A program made the translations under genes and the position numbers. The notes beneath the pieces are model-generated. The model saw only the letters and a list, made by a program, of their open reading frames with translations, ran no database searches and was not told where the DNA came from. A stretch of 6,609 bases of DNA from Deltaproteobacteria bacterium (GTDB lineage: Bacteria; Desulfobacterota; DSM-4660; Desulfatiglandales; HGW-15). The DNA lies in contig JAFGPH010000080.1 in assembly GCA_016926135.1 (NCBI GenBank), positions 1-6,609 of the forward strand, in the 5' to 3' direction. Of the stretch, positions 146-6,609 are shown piece after piece (positions within the stretch are counted from its first letter, which is position 1; every line of letters begins with the position of its first letter).

Positions 146-156
146 CTAAACCTTTT
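122..156. repeat. Degenerate heptamer tandem repeat over the stop codon
   Basis: Five consecutive 7-base units can be read on the plus strand: ACCCTCC, ACCCTGA, ACCTTGA, ACCCTAA, ACCTTTT. The array covers the stop codon (146-148) and the last codons of the minus-strand flavoprotein gene. A related but different 7-base array lies in that gene's 5' leader. Function is unknown. It resembles the low-complexity CCTTGAA-type heptads I associate with intergenic DNA of some Desulfobacterota, which is recollection and not something checked here. Confidence 0.6.
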
Positions 157-2224
157 TTCTCATCCCCGCCAGGACGCCCAGGGGCACCTCCACGAACAGG
201 GGACGGTCGATCCTGTCCGTCACCTCACCGAGGTCAACGCCCTCCTCCTGGAAAAGGCGCCAGATCATGGGACGGCAGGTCTTGGAACCGCAGGCGCCCA
301 TGCCTGCCCTGGTGAGGGCCTTCAACTGGTTCATGTCCCTCACCCCATCCCGGATGGCCGCCCGGATCTCGCCTGCCGTAACCCTTTCACAACGGCAAAC
401 CACGGCCTCATCGGGCGGAAGTTCCCTTTCATAGACCAGGGAGGGCTCCACCTGCCTCTCCTGGACCCAGATGCCGGCGGCCTGCTTGGCCAGTTCCTTC
501 TCCATCCTGACCTGTACAAGCAACGTGCCGGGAAACCTCCTCGGACTGGAAAGCACCTTCTCCACAGGGTAATAGCCCAAAACGGCTCCTTCCTCATCGG
601 TTACGGGCACCTTCTCCCCCTCCTCCACCTTTTCCCTCCATATCTCATAGGGCAGGGTGACCAGGGGTCTCTCCCCGTCCTTCCGGTAGTCCACCAGGGT
701 GACGGCAAGACCCGGACAGATGTAGAGGCAGCTCATGCATCCCTTGCAGAGGGAGACATCCGTCATGTAGGGCAGGCCCGTGAGGGCGTCTCCTTCGGTG
801 CGGATGGCATTCTCCGGGCAGACCGAGGTGCAGGGGTTACAGGGAACCTCCTGATGGCAGTGGAAGACGGGAAACACCCCCTCTTCCTCGCTCGGTTCCG
901 GCCTCTTCAGGATCGGTCCGGGCCTGGACTTGAGGATCCGCTCGTTCTCCTCCCACTCCCTGGGAATCTCTCCCTCAAAAAGCCCCAGAGACTTGGCGAT
1001 CCGGAGTCCCTCGATCCTGCCCGTGAACATGGCGGCGGAGGCCTCGGCAATCTCCCGGGCATCCCCTGCCCAGGTGACTTCCATGCCCCATTCCCTGGCC
1101 TTGTGGTAGAATTCGTTCACCTCCGCAAGACCCACGGCGATGAGCACCGTGTCCACCTCAAAGGTCTTTTCGGTTCCCGGGATCACCTTCCATTCCCTGT
1201 CCAGTGCGCCGATGGTGACCGACTCCACCCGCTCCACTCCGGACGCGGAGACGACCGTGTGACTCGTATAGATGGGGACCCCCAGCCTCCTGAGTTTGTC
1301 CGCGTGCACCCTGTAACCGCTCACCGTGGGAAGCGCCTCGATCAGGGCCGCCACCGCGATTCCGGCCTGGATCGCGTGGTATCCTGCAATGAGGCCCACG
1401 TTGCCGCCGCCTACGATCAGAACCCTCTCGGAGGACTTGACGAGATCACGATTGACCAGGGTCTGGAAGGCGCCGGCGCCGTAGATGCCCGGCAGTGTAT
1501 TGCCTGGAAAGGAGAGCATTTTTTCCCTCGCCCCCGTGGCCACCAGCAGCTTGAGGGGTTTGATTTTTCTGTAGATGCCTCCTTTCACCACCCCCACAAT
1601 GCCGTCCGAAAAAACCCCCACTGCCGTGGCGTTCAGCCAGACCTCGACGGAGTCGAATCCCCTCACCTCCTTCTCCAGCAACCGGGCGATCTCAAATCCC
1701 CGGGTGCCCGCCCTGGAGTCCTCCACGGAACCGAAGAACTTGTGCGTCTGAAGCAGGAGTTTCCCCCCCAGCCCGGGTTTGTCGTCCACCAGCAGGGTGT
1801 CCACCCCCGTCTTCCCGAGTTCGATGGCGGCAGAAATCCCGGCCGGCCCCCCTCCCAGGATCATGACCTCCACCTCCCGAACAGGAGGCTCCCGCAGCAC
1901 GGGCACCCTGTCATCCTCGGGCAGCATCGGAAGCCCCTCCATCCCCTCTATCGACATCCCGTCTTCCAGGGGAGTCATGCAGGCCTTCGCGGGGATCCCA
2001 TCGACCACCACCATGCACTGGGAGCACTGGCCGTTGGCGCAGAACAGACCCTGGGGACTGCCGTCCTTGGGATGGTGGCCGAACACGTGAATGCCGTTCG
2101 CCACCAGGGCGGAGCTGATCATTTCCCCCTTATACCCTTTGAGGGATTTCCCGTTCCACGTGAATGCCACCCCCCTTCTTCTGGGTATCTCCAGGATGGG
2201 GTGTTTCATGATTCTCATCTCCAT
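146..2224 (-). CDS. FAD-dependent oxidoreductase with 2Fe-2S, two 4Fe-4S and BFD-like domains
   Basis: This 692-residue protein is probably a cytoplasmic dehydrogenase that passes electrons from an amine or amino-acid-type substrate, or from NAD(P)H, through a chain of iron-sulfur clusters. In order: a Fer2_4-type [2Fe-2S] domain (about 15-100, Cys62, 67, 70, 82); an FAD dinucleotide fold (GGGPAG 124-129) with an inserted NAD(P) fold (GGGNVG 272-277) and a distal WAGD (385-388); a dicluster ferredoxin (Cys456, 462, 465, 469 and Cys493, 496, 499, 503); and a BFD-like [2Fe-2S] domain (Cys610, 612, 645, 650). The architecture resembles the alpha subunits of sarcosine oxidase, hydroxyproline dehydrogenase and archaeal dye-linked proline dehydrogenase, but with the ferredoxin fused in. 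Those enzymes need a catalytic beta subunit, and none is visible here. The substrate is therefore unknown. I chose the ATG at 2222-2224 because AAGGAGAGG sits seven bases upstream; an in-frame ATG at 2254 would add ten residues. Confidence 0.93.
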   Translation of the reverse strand: MEMRIMKHPILEIPRRRGVAFTWNGKSLKGYKGEMISSALVANGIHVFGHHPKDGSPQGLFCANGQCSQCMVVVDGIPAKACMTPLEDGMSIEGMEGLPMLPEDDRVPVLREPPVREVEVMILGGGPAGISAAIELGKTGVDTLLVDDKPGLGGKLLLQTHKFFGSVEDSRAGTRGFEIARLLEKEVRGFDSVEVWLNATAVGVFSDGIVGVVKGGIYRKIKPLKLLVATGAREKMLSFPGNTLPGIYGAGAFQTLVNRDLVKSSERVLIVGGGNVGLIAGYHAIQAGIAVAALIEALPTVSGYRVHADKLRRLGVPIYTSHTVVSASGVERVESVTIGALDREWKVIPGTEKTFEVDTVLIAVGLAEVNEFYHKAREWGMEVTWAGDAREIAEASAAMFTGRIEGLRIAKSLGLFEGEIPREWEENERILKSRPGPILKRPEPSEEEGVFPVFHCHQEVPCNPCTSVCPENAIRTEGDALTGLPYMTDVSLCKGCMSCLYICPGLAVTLVDYRKDGERPLVTLPYEIWREKVEEGEKVPVTDEEGAVLGYYPVEKVLSSPRRFPGTLLVQVRMEKELAKQAAGIWVQERQVEPSLVYERELPPDEAVVCRCERVTAGEIRAAIRDGVRDMNQLKALTRAGMGACGSKTCRPMIWRLFQEEGVDLGEVTDRIDRPLFVEVPLGVLAGMRKKV

Positions 2225-2226
2225 CG

Positions 2227-2254
2227 CGCCTCTCCTTGCACCTTGCACCTCCAT
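2227..2254 (-). repeat. TGCAAGG heptamer repeat in the flavoprotein leader
   Basis: On the minus strand two exact TGCAAGG units (2234-2247) are flanked by degenerate ones (ATGGAGG upstream, AGAGGCG downstream), keeping a 7-base period. The last perfect unit supplies part of the Shine-Dalgarno. It parallels the heptamer array at the other end of the same gene. Confidence 0.5.
2229..2237 (-). promoter_or_regulatory. Shine-Dalgarno deciding the flavoprotein start
   Basis: On the minus strand AAGGAGAGG ends a few bases before the ATG at 2224, with seven bases between AGGAG and the ATG. This supports the internal start over the farther ATG at 2254, which has no comparable site. The site lies inside a heptamer repeat. 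Confidence 0.75.
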
Positions 2255-2511: not shown

Positions 2512-3303
2512 ATGGCGGGCAATGCACCGGACACCTTTGAAAGGCAAAAGACCCTCCTTGGGTTTTTCTCCACGCTCTTCCTGCTGATCTCCTTCGCCCT
2601 TTTGCTTCTCGCCCTGTTGCTTCCCTTTTACGACCCCTTGAAGGGCTCTCCCTTGCGAGCCTTTCTCCCGTTGGCCGTGATCGCCCTGGCCCTCCCCCTC
2701 ATCCTGCTTCGGCGCTGCATACTCAACCCCATGATGGAACGCCTTCGTGAGGCGACCGTAACCGTCCTGGAAAGCGTTCCCCGGCCGATGATCATGAGCT
2801 CGAGCGGTGTGATGGCATGGTCCGGTTCTCCGATGGTGCTCCGCGATCCCGCACCAGGTCGCGGCCCAGGGAAATACCTGGTCACCCTGCAGGTATCCAA
2901 ACACCAGGTGCCCACGGAAGGGGAACAGGAGGTGGAGGCTTACCTTCGGCCTCAGGCCCCTGTTTCTCAGATCGTCATACGAAGCAGCAGGGGATGGTTT
3001 ATGGGCAGGCTCATGTCAAGGAATGACCTGAAGGCCGAGGCGGAGAAGTTCACGAGGCTCGTGCGGGCTGTGATCGGAACGATCAGTGTTGTCTTCGTTG
3101 GGACCGTTGTTTTCTTCGCATGGCAATACCTTTCACAGAGGACCGTCGCCCTTCGCCCCCTTTTGACGGCTTTCCTGGGGGCTGCGGTCTTCGTCCCGCT
3201 TCTCTGCTTCCTGATGCGCCTCTCCCTGCGAAAACTCAGCCGCTTCGTCGAATCCTTGGACAGGGAAGATCCCCACGAATACTGGGATCCGCTGGCCCCG
3301 TAA
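2512..3303 (+). CDS. Four-helix integral membrane protein of unknown function
   Basis: I do not recognise this 263-residue protein. Hydrophobic segments lie at about 15-39, 48-66, 187-208 and 217-236, forming two helical hairpins around a soluble middle part of about 120 residues (67-186). The positive residues beside the helices (Arg67-Arg68, Arg182, Arg185) suggest that the middle part and both termini face the cytoplasm. The middle contains a short Gly/Pro-rich loop (PAPGRGPGK, 113-121) and then probable beta strands. There are no cysteine clusters, nucleotide loops or obvious catalytic motifs. The start ATG has AGGAAGG ten bases upstream. It is the credible frame here because the overlapping minus-strand frames are low-complexity and charged. 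The gene has its own promoter and a long leader, and converges on the hydrolase gene with 11 bp between stop codons, so its function cannot be read from operon partners. Confidence 0.8.
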   Translation: MAGNAPDTFERQKTLLGFFSTLFLLISFALLLLALLLPFYDPLKGSPLRAFLPLAVIALALPLILLRRCILNPMMERLREATVTVLESVPRPMIMSSSGVMAWSGSPMVLRDPAPGRGPGKYLVTLQVSKHQVPTEGEQEVEAYLRPQAPVSQIVIRSSRGWFMGRLMSRNDLKAEAEKFTRLVRAVIGTISVVFVGTVVFFAWQYLSQRTVALRPLLTAFLGAAVFVPLLCFLMRLSLRKLSRFVESLDREDPHEYWDPLAP

Positions 3304-3314
3304 GGCTCCCGTCC

Positions 3315-4145
3315 TCATATTCTCCCATGCCCTGCAAAGGTGGCGAAGTTCCTGAAATAGCCTTCCCCTCCAACCACATAGGTGTCATTGTGGCCTGCCC
3401 CACGGATGGGGTAGAAGAACTTGGGTGCCCCTGCCGCCGCGTAGAGCCTCTCCCCCATGGAAAAGGGGATAAGTTCGTCCGCGTCGCCGTGAATGACGAG
3501 AAGGGGGACCTTCACCCGGGAAACCTTCTCCAGATTGTTGTAGTGGTCCGGCACAAAAGGGGAGATGGGGAGAAAGAGCGGCATGGTCTTTGCCATGTCC
3601 CTCATCGAGGTGAAGGCGCTTTCGAGGACCAGGGCCTTCACCCTTCTCCCGAGCGCCACCTCGACGGCCACCGCGCCCCCCAGGGAACGTCCGAAAGGGA
3701 CGATTTCATCCGCAGATATTCCCTCCCTGTGAAGCAGGTAATCATAGGCCGCCAGCCCGTCCGCATAGATCCCCTTTTCCGAAGGGCGCCCCTCGCTCTT
3801 CCCGTACCCCCGGTAATCGAATATGAAAACCCTCAGCCCCTTCCCCAGAAGCCTGGAGACATTGTCCAGGCGGTGGGAAATGTTTCCCGCGTTCCCGTGG
3901 CAGAAGAGGATCACCGGGCCTTCCTGCCTGGAGGCGAAATACCAGCCGTGAAGGCGCTTGCCGTCCCCGCTTTCAAAGGTGACATCCTTGTACGGGAGGC
4001 CCAGGGCCTGGGGAGAGAATTCCAGGCTCCGCTGCGGAAAAAAGACAAAGAAGTTCTCCACCCGGGGGTAGAAGAGATAAAAGAGCGCCCCGCAAAGGGC
4101 AACCAGGCACACGAGGTATATCCATTGGACCGGCATGAAAAGCAT
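3315..4145 (-). CDS. Membrane-anchored alpha/beta hydrolase (ABHD13/ABHD17/Bem46-like)
   Basis: This is a 276-residue serine hydrolase of the alpha/beta fold. It starts with one hydrophobic helix (about 8-26) that is likely an uncleaved membrane anchor. The catalytic domain shows the oxyanion motif HGNAGN (83-88), the conserved DYRGYGKSEG segment (110-119), the nucleophile elbow GRSLGG (152-157, Ser154), the acid in HGDADELIP (Asp223) and the base in GAGHND (His252). These are the hallmarks of the Bem46/YfhR/ABHD13 group. Relatives include eukaryotic depalmitoylases, but most bacterial members have no known substrate; an ester or thioester is likely. The frame stays open to a TTG at 4247. I prefer the ATG at 4145 because a promoter candidate falls at 4182-4210, inside that extension, and the extra 34 residues look unlike a coding N-terminus. 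No strong ribosome site supports either, and a GTG at 4166 is also possible. Confidence 0.9.
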   Translation of the reverse strand: MLFMPVQWIYLVCLVALCGALFYLFYPRVENFFVFFPQRSLEFSPQALGLPYKDVTFESGDGKRLHGWYFASRQEGPVILFCHGNAGNISHRLDNVSRLLGKGLRVFIFDYRGYGKSEGRPSEKGIYADGLAAYDYLLHREGISADEIVPFGRSLGGAVAVEVALGRRVKALVLESAFTSMRDMAKTMPLFLPISPFVPDHYNNLEKVSRVKVPLLVIHGDADELIPFSMGERLYAAAGAPKFFYPIRGAGHNDTYVVGGEGYFRNFATFAGHGRI

Positions 4146-4181
4146 TCGCCAGAGTCTGTTTCTCACCCCAACCGGAGCCTT

Positions 4182-4210
4182 AGTACACCGTTTCACAAAT
4201 CCGTTCACAA
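4182..4210 (-). promoter_or_regulatory. Candidate promoter for the hydrolase gene
   Basis: On the minus strand TTGTGA (4205-4210) lies 17 bases from TGTACT (4182-4187). Each box matches the sigma70 consensus at four of six positions. Transcription would start near 4175, about 30 bases before the preferred ATG at 4145. The call is moderate because both boxes are imperfect. Confidence 0.4.
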
Positions 4211-4212
4211 AT
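4188..4212. repeat. Tandem direct repeat CCGTT(T)CACAAAT
   Basis: CCGTTTCACAAAT (4188-4200) is followed immediately by CCGTTCACAAAT (4201-4212), differing by one inserted T. The pair covers the -35 box and spacer of the candidate hydrolase promoter. That position fits an operator bound by a dimeric or tandem-binding regulator, but no regulator is identified. Confidence 0.45.
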
Positions 4213-4254
4213 GCCGATGCCCTCGCAGGAAGCCGGAAAACCTGCAATATTGTA

Positions 4255-4283
4255 TTGCGAAGGAGCGTCCAATCTCCTACACT
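4255..4283 (+). promoter_or_regulatory. Candidate promoter for the receiver-PFK gene
   Basis: TTGCGA (4255-4260) and TACACT (4278-4283) are separated by 17 bases; each matches the sigma70 consensus at four of six positions. The predicted start near 4290 leaves a leader of about 45 bases. The ribosome site GAGGGA (4324-4329) stands five bases before the ATG at 4335. Confidence 0.45.
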
Positions 4284-4334
4284 GGCGTATCATAAACCAT
4301 TTGATCCGCCATTTCCAGGCCATGAGGGATTGCC

Positions 4335-5810
4335 ATGAAAGAAAAGCACAGGATCCTGATCGTAGACGGCGACGAGGCGGCGAGAGAGAACTGGGCAGGC
4401 ATTGTCCGGAAAGACCCTGACTTTCAGGTCGATCAGGCCTCTTCCGGCAAAGAGGCCCTCAGGAAAATACGCAGGGTCGTCCCCGACATCGTGCTTTCCG
4501 CCCTGAGTGTTCCCGATATGGAAGGCCTCTCCCTCTGCCGGGAGCTCAAGTCCGATCCTGACGCGCCTCAGGCGAACATCTACTTCATCCTGGTAGGCCC
4601 GGCCGGCACAGAGGGGGAGAGGGTACGCCATGTGGAGGTAGGCGCCGACGACTACCTGGCAAGCCCTGTCAGGCCCGACGAGCTTCTCGCCAGGGTCAAG
4701 GTGGGCCAACGGATAGCCATTCAGCTCAAGAGGGCGGACCTGGAGTACAAGCGCATGTTCCAGGAAATTGATATGCTCCTGGTTCAGGACGGAGGATGCG
4801 CACCCGGCTACAACCCGGTCACCGCTTTTATCACCTACCATATGGAGGCCCAGGGAAGGAGGGTTTACGCCACCATGGAAGGTTTCAAATCCCTGGCCTC
4901 CGGTAAAGACACCGACTTCCTCCGTCTCGTCTATGATCCCGTGCTTTTCAAGAAGCTGGATCGACACCCCGGCGTATATCATGCGGCCCCCCTTTCGGAA
5001 TGGAGGGGCGCCCAACTCAGGAGCGAGCGGTACAAGGACTTCCTGAAGCCCGAGGTTCAGAGGAAGGCGGCTGCCATCATCAAGAGGAAGAAGGTGAGAG
5101 GCATCATCGCCATCGGGGGCAACGGCACCTTCAAAGGGATCCGCTCCCTCTGTGAAATGATCCCCACATCCATCCAGACCTTCTTCATTCCCGTCACCAT
5201 CGACAGCGACGTGGCTGGCACGGACTGCATCGGCCAGTTCACGGGTGTCGAGATCGGCGCCGAAAAGATCCGGTGTTACATGGCCGATGCCAGGACCCAT
5301 AAGAGGATCTACATCGTGGAAATGATGGGCGCCAACAGCGGCTTCCATGCCCTCCACTCCTGCCTGGGCGCGAGGGCCCACATGGCCGTGCTGCCCAACA
5401 GTGTGATCGACCACAGGAGAGTGGCTTCGGCCCTCAACAGGAGAGACGAGGCCGTCATCGTGGTGGCCGAAGGGTACAAGAAGCTGGAGAGGGAAGCCAG
5501 GGGCATCAAGGACAACGCAGCCGAATACTTCTACAAGGAACTGGTGGCGACCGGTATCAAGATCAGGCGCAGGGTCGTGTGCGAGCCGTTCTCCAGGGAC
5601 ATTCGGGGGGCCGCTCCCAACAACATGGACATCTCCCTGGCCCAGCGTATGGCCTATAACGTGGCATCCTACATGAAGGCAGGGACCAGCAGACTGATGC
5701 CTGCCGTTCAGTCCGGCAGGGAATACGCCATCCCCTTCAACGAGATCGAAACGGACAACCTGAAGGAGAAGGACCTGATGGTGCTCGCCGACCGGCTCAC
5801 CAGCGGTTAA
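4335..5810 (+). CDS. Receiver domain fused to 6-phosphofructokinase-family domain
   Basis: This 491-residue protein joins a response-regulator receiver (about 5-124) by a charged helical linker (125-145) to a phosphofructokinase fold (about 146-491). PFK enzymes phosphorylate fructose 6-phosphate. The PFK part shows DGGCAPGYN (152-160), GGNGTFKG (261-268), VTIDSD (287-292, catalytic Asp290 with Asp292), HKR (322-324), MGANSG (331-336), AEGYKK (378-383) and IRGAAPNN (423-430). The last resembles the IRAVPSN stretch of plant and mixed-group PFKs more than bacterial PfkA. Position 264 is Gly, as in ATP enzymes, and the Lys of PPi enzymes is Val287. The receiver keeps its shape (ILIVD, VPDMEG, GADDYL) but has Ala56 for the phospho-acceptor Asp, Val87 for the Thr/Ser, Ser110 for the Lys and Gly12 in the acidic pair. 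It is unlikely to be phosphorylated in the usual way. Both domains share one uninterrupted frame. Whether the kinase is active is open. Confidence 0.92.
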   Translation: MKEKHRILIVDGDEAARENWAGIVRKDPDFQVDQASSGKEALRKIRRVVPDIVLSALSVPDMEGLSLCRELKSDPDAPQANIYFILVGPAGTEGERVRHVEVGADDYLASPVRPDELLARVKVGQRIAIQLKRADLEYKRMFQEIDMLLVQDGGCAPGYNPVTAFITYHMEAQGRRVYATMEGFKSLASGKDTDFLRLVYDPVLFKKLDRHPGVYHAAPLSEWRGAQLRSERYKDFLKPEVQRKAAAIIKRKKVRGIIAIGGNGTFKGIRSLCEMIPTSIQTFFIPVTIDSDVAGTDCIGQFTGVEIGAEKIRCYMADARTHKRIYIVEMMGANSGFHALHSCLGARAHMAVLPNSVIDHRRVASALNRRDEAVIVVAEGYKKLEREARGIKDNAAEYFYKELVATGIKIRRRVVCEPFSRDIRGAAPNNMDISLAQRMAYNVASYMKAGTSRLMPAVQSGREYAIPFNEIETDNLKEKDLMVLADRLTSG

Positions 5811-5817
5811 CAGGACG

Positions 5818-6609
5818 CTAGATGTGGAACTCCGCCACGTCCCCATCCTGGAGCACATAGTCCCGCTGGACCATCTGGCCTTCGTAGACCGCCTTTCCCC
5901 AGATCCGGGCATACTTGAGCTTCTGCTGGAAATCCTTGTGGACCTTGACGGCCAGGTCCTCCAGGGTGCTCTCACGGGGAAGCACGAAGGGCGCCGTGAA
6001 GTCCGGATCCTTGCCCCGGGCCCGGGTGTAGACCCTGATGATATTCGAGAGTTCGTAGATTTTCTCGACGAGGGCATGGACGTTGCGCTTCTCCCTCGCA
6101 GAGATCCCCAAGCCCGGGAAGGTCAACTCGGCGAGTTCGAGGAACACATGGTAATCTTTATCATCTTCATCGCTGTCCACCTTGTTCACCGCCGCAATGA
6201 CCTTCTTGATGAAGGGCGGCTTACGGAGATCCTCGGGAACAGGCGTGCTTTCGGGAAAGACGCGCCACTCCGCCAGCATGGAGAGCACCTCCTCCAGTTG
6301 CTCCAGGGGGTCGGCATGCAGGTCCACCAGGATGACCAGCATGTCCGCCCGGCGCAGCAGATCGGGAAGGTAGGGGTCCGTGTACTCCCTTGTGAGAGGA
6401 GGTGTGTCGATAAGCTGGAACTGGATGTTCTCAAAGTTGGCCATGCCCGGGGTGGGCTTCCACGTGGAATGAGGAAAGTCGGCGATCTCGGGCGTGGCGT
6501 TGGTCAGGGCCGCTACCAGTGATGATTTGCCGGAATTGGGTGGGCCGATCACGGCGATCTGCCCGGCCCCCTCCCTGGCGATGGAATAGGCGGTCTCCCT
6601 CCGGGAGCC
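5818..6609 (-). CDS. DRG/Obg-like GTPase with C-terminal TGS domain (partial, N-terminus off the edge)
   Basis: The visible 263 residues are most of a TRAFAC-class GTPase of the DRG (COG1163-like) type; the reading frame continues through the right edge of the window. The segment REGAGQIAVIGPPNSGKS leads into the P-loop (G1, visible residues 22-29). Then come G2 (FPHST, Thr49), G3 (DTPP, 68-71), G4 (NKVD, 142-145), G5 (Ser170-Ala171) and a TGS domain (about 210-263) ending EGQMVQRDYVLQDGDVAEFHI-like, as in DRG proteins. Relatives bind GTP and often associate with ribosomes or RNA, but the role of bacterial members is unclear. G3 has Pro where most GTPases have Gly (DxxG). The GTG at 6552 is an internal valine (IAVIGPP), not a start, since the conserved sequence runs upstream of it. 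The stop is 7 bp from the stop of the receiver-PFK gene. Confidence 0.92.
   Translation of the reverse strand, partial: GSRRETAYSIAREGAGQIAVIGPPNSGKSSLVAALTNATPEIADFPHSTWKPTPGMANFENIQFQLIDTPPLTREYTDPYLPDLLRRADMLVILVDLHADPLEQLEEVLSMLAEWRVFPESTPVPEDLRKPPFIKKVIAAVNKVDSDEDDKDYHVFLELAELTFPGLGISAREKRNVHALVEKIYELSNIIRVYTRARGKDPDFTAPFVLPRESTLEDLAVKVHKDFQQKLKYARIWGKAVYEGQMVQRDYVLQDGDVAEFHI

Follow-up and report, generated by a model that had tools for sequence, protein, structure and literature searches.

A Degenerate Receiver Fused to a Phosphofructokinase Domain in a Bacterial Protein Family with Different Input Domains

Main Finding

The window, which is the whole stretch of 6,609 nucleotides analysed here, holds a gene in which a response-regulator receiver domain and a phosphofructokinase (PFK) domain are joined in a single protein of 491 residues. 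Judged by its sequence, this PFK domain falls within a deep and conserved clade whose members carry a receiver, a cNMP-binding domain, or neither of them. The best explanation, to which we give a probability of about 0.5, is that the protein is a sensor-gated, probably ATP-type sugar-phosphate kinase that would work beside a housekeeping PFK. In the window protein itself, the receiver has lost the residues of ordinary phosphorylation, and the signal that it would receive is probably of another kind than in most of its relatives.

The Fusion Gene and Its Occurrence

The initial annotation described one uninterrupted frame running from the receiver to the PFK domain, and ORF analysis gave exactly this: an ATG, 491 codons, and then a stop, without interruption. 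The sequence GAGG lies seven bases 5' of the ATG. Both domains scored above the Pfam cut-offs, with an E-value of 7e-18 and 65.2 bits against 30.2 for Response_reg (PF00072) and an E-value of 1.5e-47 and 162.7 bits against 30.9 for PFK (PF00365). Their limits (Table 1) agree with the ranges of residues 5-124 and 146-491 that had been read from the sequence.

Table 1. Features of the fusion gene and its divergent neighbour in the window.
Feature	Position	Strand	Basis or remark
Receiver-PFK fusion gene, 491 aa	4335..5810	+	Open frame, ATG start
Receiver domain, residues 7-122	4353..4700	+	Pfam
Codon 56, Ala in place of the phospho-acceptor Asp	4500..4502	+	Asp in 99/120 (best 120 of 1384)
Codon 110, Ser in place of the conserved receiver Lys	4662..4664	+	Lys in 110/120 (best 120 of 1384)
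Linker helix, residues 114-141, continuous with the last helix of the receiver	4674..4757	+	AlphaFold2 model
PFK domain, residues 149-444	4779..5666	+	Pfam; conserved similarity extends to the C-terminus
GGNGT, residues 261-265	5115..5129	+	E. coli D103 is Asn (270/289 rows), G104 kept (289/289)
PVTIDSD, residues 286-292	5190..5210	+	Val at E. coli G124 (289/289); T125, D127, and D129 kept
MMGA, residues 330-333	5322..5333	+	E. coli R171 is Ala (275/289 rows)
Alpha/beta hydrolase, divergent neighbour	3315..4247	-	Pfam PF12146/PF00561; 87 bp from the fusion gene

The fusion is real and does not result from misassembly. Homologues that consistently encode the two domains as separate proteins had been named as the observation that would speak against it; both domains were present in all of the best 120 of 1384 proteins retrieved with the window protein as the query, its own sequence included. 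Of the 85 genomes in the class of G001, 19 matched the fusion, 18 of them across both domains. The remaining match (G283) covered the PFK part only; the 5 kb of sequence retrieved there showed no receiver, and the hydrolase neighbour was still present. In the phylum sample around G008, 8 of 198 genomes matched, seven across both domains and one (G182) with the cNMP form. At a stricter threshold, the matches in other phylum samples were 11/247 genomes for G021, 1/198 for G013, 1/191 for G018, and 1/2 for G015. These counts show a genuine fusion with a patchy distribution, and those relatives that have a name are mostly labelled Deltaproteobacteria or Thermodesulfobacteriota. The idea that separate genes for a receiver and a PFK were joined by chance or by an assembly error is ruled out by the identical junction in many independently assembled genomes, and its residual probability is negligible. 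Nothing in the window supports it, although one of the 18 full-length matches (G259, L101) shows that splits can occur in single genomes: it has an in-frame TAG at the receiver/PFK junction, and P0269, which comes from the same contig, has an intact-looking receiver upstream in the same frame. The gene may be split here, or the TAG may have arisen by recent mutation or through an error of assembly.

The Receiver of the Window Protein

The window receiver matches PF00072 and lacks the phospho-acceptor Asp, which is replaced by Ala56. The acidic pair and the conserved Lys are not complete either (D11-G12 and Ser110); the residues found are Gly12, Ala56, Gly88, and Ser110. Normal phosphorylation control is not to be expected because of Ala at 56, Ser at 110, and Gly as the second acidic residue, and ordinary phosphorylation control of the window protein is thus unlikely. 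Within the best 120 of 1384 proteins, Asp56 and Lys110 occur together in 95, the acidic pair, Asp56, and Lys110 occur together in 60, and Asp56 is absent from 21. The nearest relatives, P0002 and P0003, are also degenerate (Ser or Asn at 56, Ser at 110), and they form a clade with the window protein in the 88-row tree (support 99).

The receivers of this trio share 60.5-66.1% pairwise identity. Pairs of receivers with Asp56 and Lys110, compared at matched PFK identity (n = 234), have a mean of 61.4% (sd 5.3). The trio diverges no faster than these pairs, and therefore the domain still seems constrained and is not visibly decaying. Such a rate is weak evidence, drawn from three sequences, for a retained structural or ligand-binding role of the receiver. 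The initial annotation had suggested that a signalling module directly controls a sugar-phosphate kinase. That the PFK domain is linked to signalling is borne out, all the more so since its clade also contains fusions to cNMP-binding domains; control of the window protein through ordinary receiver phosphorylation, given Gly12, Ala56, and Ser110, is not supported. Both the degenerate phosphorylation residues of this protein and the different sensor domain of its relatives had been passed over.

Input Domains across the PFK Family

The initial annotation had proposed a search of domain architectures and a tree, and these revealed numerous copies of the fusion and one PFK clade bearing two kinds of input. 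The genome search gave 23 loci with a family member: nine with a receiver, thirteen with a cNMP-binding domain, and one with the PFK domain alone (L015, from a PVC bacterium). The receiver loci (L001-L008 and L018) all matched the window receiver by BLAST (9/9), and the four that were scanned also matched by Pfam. In the cNMP loci, PF00027 was found by Pfam in 13/13, and it was also found in G182. Receiver forms occur mainly in deltaproteobacterial lineages, and cNMP forms in Chlorobiota, Bacteroidota, Calditrichota, and others.

The lists of proteins retrieved with representatives of the other architectures agree with this picture. All of the best 120 of 589 proteins found with L012 have the cNMP-PFK architecture; Chloroherpeton thalassium ATCC 35110 is the source of one of them. 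Their cNMP pocket is mostly intact, with G85 in 120/120, E86 in 107/120, and R95 in 114/120 of these best 120 of 589; the Chloroherpeton protein (P0134) has His where R95 stands. With L015 as the query, PFK was the sole Pfam domain in 21 of the best 120 of 631 proteins. Fifteen of these 21 have a short non-receiver N-terminus of their own (best 120 of 631), and three (P0271, P0276, and P0286) retain a partial or decayed receiver. By length, 18 family rows were labelled stand-alone; 15 remain after the N-terminus check, which removed P0269 together with P0247 and P0292, both of which start inside the linker and may be truncated gene calls. The receiver thus appears dispensable in some lineages. 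The PFK part is also the better conserved one, with a mean pairwise identity of 80% against 51% for the receiver (best 120 of 1384).

In the tree of 88 rows, which included ten other PFKs, the family was separated from these ten with support 100. The cNMP forms made up one clade (support 99), and the receiver forms without L018, together with 16 nested rows labelled stand-alone, made up another (support 99). L018, L015, P0241, and P0242 fell outside the receiver clade. For L018, a receiver form from Bdellovibrionales, this position comes from a quick tree, and a single receiver clade including it was not rejected (p-AU 0.81). Without P0269, P0247, and P0292, three switches between the stand-alone and other forms are needed, and six are needed with all 18 labels. 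The three concern the PVC-type rows and two clades, of 364 and 373 aa, that both lie inside the receiver clade. The receiver was therefore probably lost at least twice there.

Active Site and Effector Site of the PFK Domain

Residues were mapped to E. coli PfkA with the literature numbering. The counts refer to 289 family rows (151 receiver, 120 cNMP, and 18 labelled stand-alone), from which P0273, lacking a recognisable start motif, and the partial or decayed-receiver rows P0271, P0276, P0285, and P0286 are omitted. G11, R72, G104, G108, D127, D129, R162, M169, and R252 are invariant in 289/289 rows, and T125 and E222 are kept in 288/289. We take R72, R162, M169, and R252 to be sugar-phosphate and bridging positions. 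The catalytic Thr125, Asp127, and Asp129 are present in the window protein as T288, D290, and D292. That the catalytic residues are so constant speaks for an active enzyme.

Positions 103, 124, and 171, which presumably lie around the Mg-nucleotide on the phosphoryl-donor side, have changed (Table 1), which points to a different donor chemistry or to lower activity. Asp is found at position 103 in 17 of the 289 rows and Arg at position 171 in 11. The Asn103/Ala171 pair is not kept in 28 of 293 rows, some of which, P0134 among them, have D103 and R171 together, so the two positions appear to be exchangeable within the family. In all 289 rows, H249 is replaced by Arg and R243 by Val, Ile, or Leu. 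Given Asn103, Ala171, Val124, and the replacement of R243, the activity of the family could be low or absent. The window protein has GGNG, V287, and A333 in place of the GGDG motif, G124, and R171 of ATP-dependent PFKs. Asp104 together with Lys124 marks PPi-dependent PFKs, and the window protein has G264 and V287 at these positions.

We assume that the ADP/PEP effector site consists of R21, R25, R54, R154, K211, and K213 of E. coli PfkA. R21 and R154 are replaced in 289/289 rows, R25 in 287, and R54 in 272, and effector positions 212-215 are gapped in 289/289. The window protein has no such site: A164, Y168, P202, and M316 stand at R21, R25, R54, and R154, and 211 and 213 are gapped. It also falls short of the NCBIfam models for PFK, with 142.1 bits against a cut-off of 253 for the subfamily model PRK03202 and 115.6 against 371 for the equivalog TIGR02482, both of which describe ATP-dependent PFKs. 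Representatives of the three architectures (P0001, L012, and L015) lie below every NCBIfam PFK cut-off listed. As a control, L029, the second PFK in the genome of L012, passes two of these cut-offs.

Of the 23 genomes that encode a family member, 22 contain at least one further PFK match; the exception is G003, where nothing but the fusion matched. Among the 34 other PFK proteins, 27 were examined, and all of them have Lys at position 124, where the family has Val, and Arg at position 171. Lys124 is found in PPi enzymes and in some ATP enzymes. Since another PFK is present in 22/23 genomes and all 27 examined have Lys124, the family protein is probably not the housekeeping PFK.

Structure Models and the Linker Helix

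The full-length prediction that had also been proposed was successful in part. The AlphaFold2 model of the window protein (mean pLDDT 81.6, pTM 0.60) has good local confidence, and its 28 top VIA rows are all PFKs, but the PFK lobes are misplaced, with an rmsd of about 12 against known PFKs. For this reason, no interface or contact was taken from it. The short charged helix described between the domains is seen in the model as a single helix that prolongs the last helix of the receiver toward the PFK domain (Table 1). A helix at the same place (residues 125-151) is predicted for the cNMP relative L021. The model of the cNMP relative has an rmsd of 3.4-4.2 to the listed known PFKs, and its fold matches include PKA RI-alpha CNB-B. 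The best PDB sequence match of the window protein is PleD, through the receiver.

Neighbouring Genes

Of the 25 genomes or records for which upstream sequence was available, nine have the divergent alpha/beta hydrolase gene next to the PFK gene: the window, G278, G283, and L001-L006, which are six of the eight receiver loci L001-L008 from deltaproteobacteria. L007, with 163 bp upstream only, is left out of these 25, and the cNMP form L087 is not counted. The hydrolase stays beside the stand-alone form in G283, and therefore it goes with the PFK domain and not with the receiver; a functional link between hydrolase and PFK is possible. An account in terms of operon logic was rejected, as most neighbouring genes are not shared between loci. 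Among the neighbours of receiver forms that were scanned, in a subset of the receiver loci, none was a histidine kinase gene. In the cNMP locus L012, a gene with CHASE2 and class III nucleotide cyclase domains (Pfam; 3092-5464, minus strand) stands in divergent orientation next to the cNMP-PFK gene, and BLAST placed homologues at this position in L011 and L014. This cyclase neighbour is found in only 3 of the 13 cNMP loci, and these three are closely related.

Several further genes were observed around family members. A pyruvate phosphate dikinase gene lies directly downstream of the cNMP-PFK gene in L009 (7221-10058, plus strand), and a 4-alpha-glucanotransferase gene lies near that of L016 (2217-3752, plus strand). 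In L015, the stand-alone gene is closely preceded by a PTS EIIA gene (3351-3800, plus strand); a transketolase gene follows at a greater upstream distance, on the opposite strand. The window itself also encodes a 702-aa protein with 2Fe-2S, FAD/NAD, and BFD-like domains (146-2254, minus strand), which resembles the sarcosine oxidase alpha subunit in NCBIfam far below the cut-off, and a 263-aa protein with hydrophobic stretches (2512-3303, plus strand) that has no match in Pfam or NCBIfam. A small GTPase with a TGS domain (5818-6609, minus strand), below the Obg-type cut-offs, is convergent with the fusion gene and is truncated by the window edge. Antisense to the fusion runs an open frame of 595 codons (4290-6077, minus strand); similar shadow frames occur in relatives, and it is most likely a by-product of codon bias.

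Proposed Function and Alternatives

In the explanation that we consider best, the window protein would be a member of a distinct PFK-A-type family, with fructose 6-phosphate as the most likely substrate and ATP rather than PPi as the probable donor. The N-terminal input domain would control the kinase and would thereby replace the classical ADP/PEP effector site. Its last helix is predicted to run toward the first PFK strand and could pass the state of the input domain to the catalytic lobe or to the subunit interface; we infer that a tilt or rotation of the linker helix, imposed by the input domain, displaces the PFK lobes or the interface. For most relatives, the input would come either through a cNMP-binding domain or through a receiver that can be phosphorylated. 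In the small clade of the window protein, where the phosphorylation site is lost, the receiver may be a phosphorylation-independent regulatory domain that responds to a ligand or a partner. Since the window protein cannot be triggered by phosphorylation in the usual way, a ligand or a partner would have to be the trigger. The likely role of the enzyme would be to add a PFK step that is gated by a signal, while a separate PFK serves housekeeping.

There are other ways to read the same residues. The PFK domain might be a catalytically weak or dead sensor of a sugar phosphate (and a nucleotide), with partner binding as its output and the sugar-phosphate site kept for sensing. The replacements at D103, R171, and G124, the presence of another PFK in nearly every genome, and the scores below all NCBIfam PFK cut-offs are consistent with such a sensor. 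Pseudo-enzymes, however, usually drift at catalytic residues; here D127 and D129 are invariant and T125 is missing from a single row, and the rows that depart from the Asn103/Ala171 pair, some with both residues of E. coli PfkA, indicate positions that are exchanged within the family. We regard such a sensor as unlikely, though it is a reading of some weight. An active kinase that uses another phosphorylated substrate or an unusual donor, and is not a glycolytic PFK, is in our judgement slightly less likely again. It would fit Val124 (Gly in E. coli PfkA, Lys in the 27 other PFKs), the changed sugar-phosphate pocket (Arg at H249, an aliphatic residue at R243), the long distance of the clade from the ten other PFKs in the tree, and, in the PVC genome, the PTS EIIA gene beside the stand-alone form and the transketolase gene near it. 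Against a different substrate stand the invariant R72, R162, M169, and R252 and the nearly invariant E222.

Comparison with Known Systems

The sensor-gated kinase proposed here has the fold and the Pfam family (PF00365) of ATP-dependent 6-phosphofructokinases such as E. coli PfkA and S. aureus Pfk, and it keeps their D127, T125, D129, R72, R162, E222, R252, and G104. Unlike them, it has N103, V124, and A171, an extra N-terminal input, no ADP/PEP effector site, and scores below the NCBIfam PFK cut-offs listed. The PFK fold is also common to PPi-dependent phosphofructokinases, which, like the family of the window protein, are without the classical effector site; they have D104 and K124, whereas the family has G104 and V124. 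In enzyme-output response regulators such as PleD, a receiver is likewise fused directly to an enzyme, in that case a diguanylate cyclase. The window protein differs from PleD in its PFK output and in the missing phospho-acceptor. A likeness to cNMP-binding-domain enzymes with PKA-like allostery is seen in the relatives only, in which PF00027 has a largely conserved G-E...R pocket; the output is a PFK-like domain, and the window protein itself has no cNMP domain.

The initial annotation had called a glycolytic-enzyme output of a receiver unusual. The PFK instance and the interchangeable inputs do look new, but receivers attached to metabolic enzymes are already a recognised trend, for which pyruvate phosphate dikinase and thioredoxin reductase are named (PMC5847659, section 14). 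The idea of a metabolic enzyme under a receiver is the same there. The archaeal receiver-enzyme fusions of that section are reported with narrow ranges, and the section names no PFK (PMC5847659, section 14). The PFK module described here has two kinds of input and is found in several phyla. In the open-access literature, no account of a receiver-PFK or cNMP-PFK protein was found, and an earlier mention is possible in older reviews of response-regulator outputs. What looks new from these sequence comparisons is a PFK family with interchangeable signal inputs.

Biological Significance

In the usual view, signals from two-component systems and cyclic nucleotides influence the central metabolism of bacteria by way of transcription. 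As a tentative general proposal, a PFK family found in several phyla may have moved its control from a metabolite effector site to interchangeable input domains, so that a phosphorelay or cAMP/cGMP would act directly on a glycolytic-type kinase, and some receivers may by now have become phosphorylation-independent sensors. The natural variants, with an intact, a degenerate, or no receiver, with a cNMP domain, and with Asn or Asp and Ala or Arg in the active site, make the question testable by comparison. If the proposal is true, a PFK-type enzyme with a built-in receiver or cNMP sensor would be a direct and fast link from signal to central metabolism in bacteria for which little is known about the control of glycolysis.
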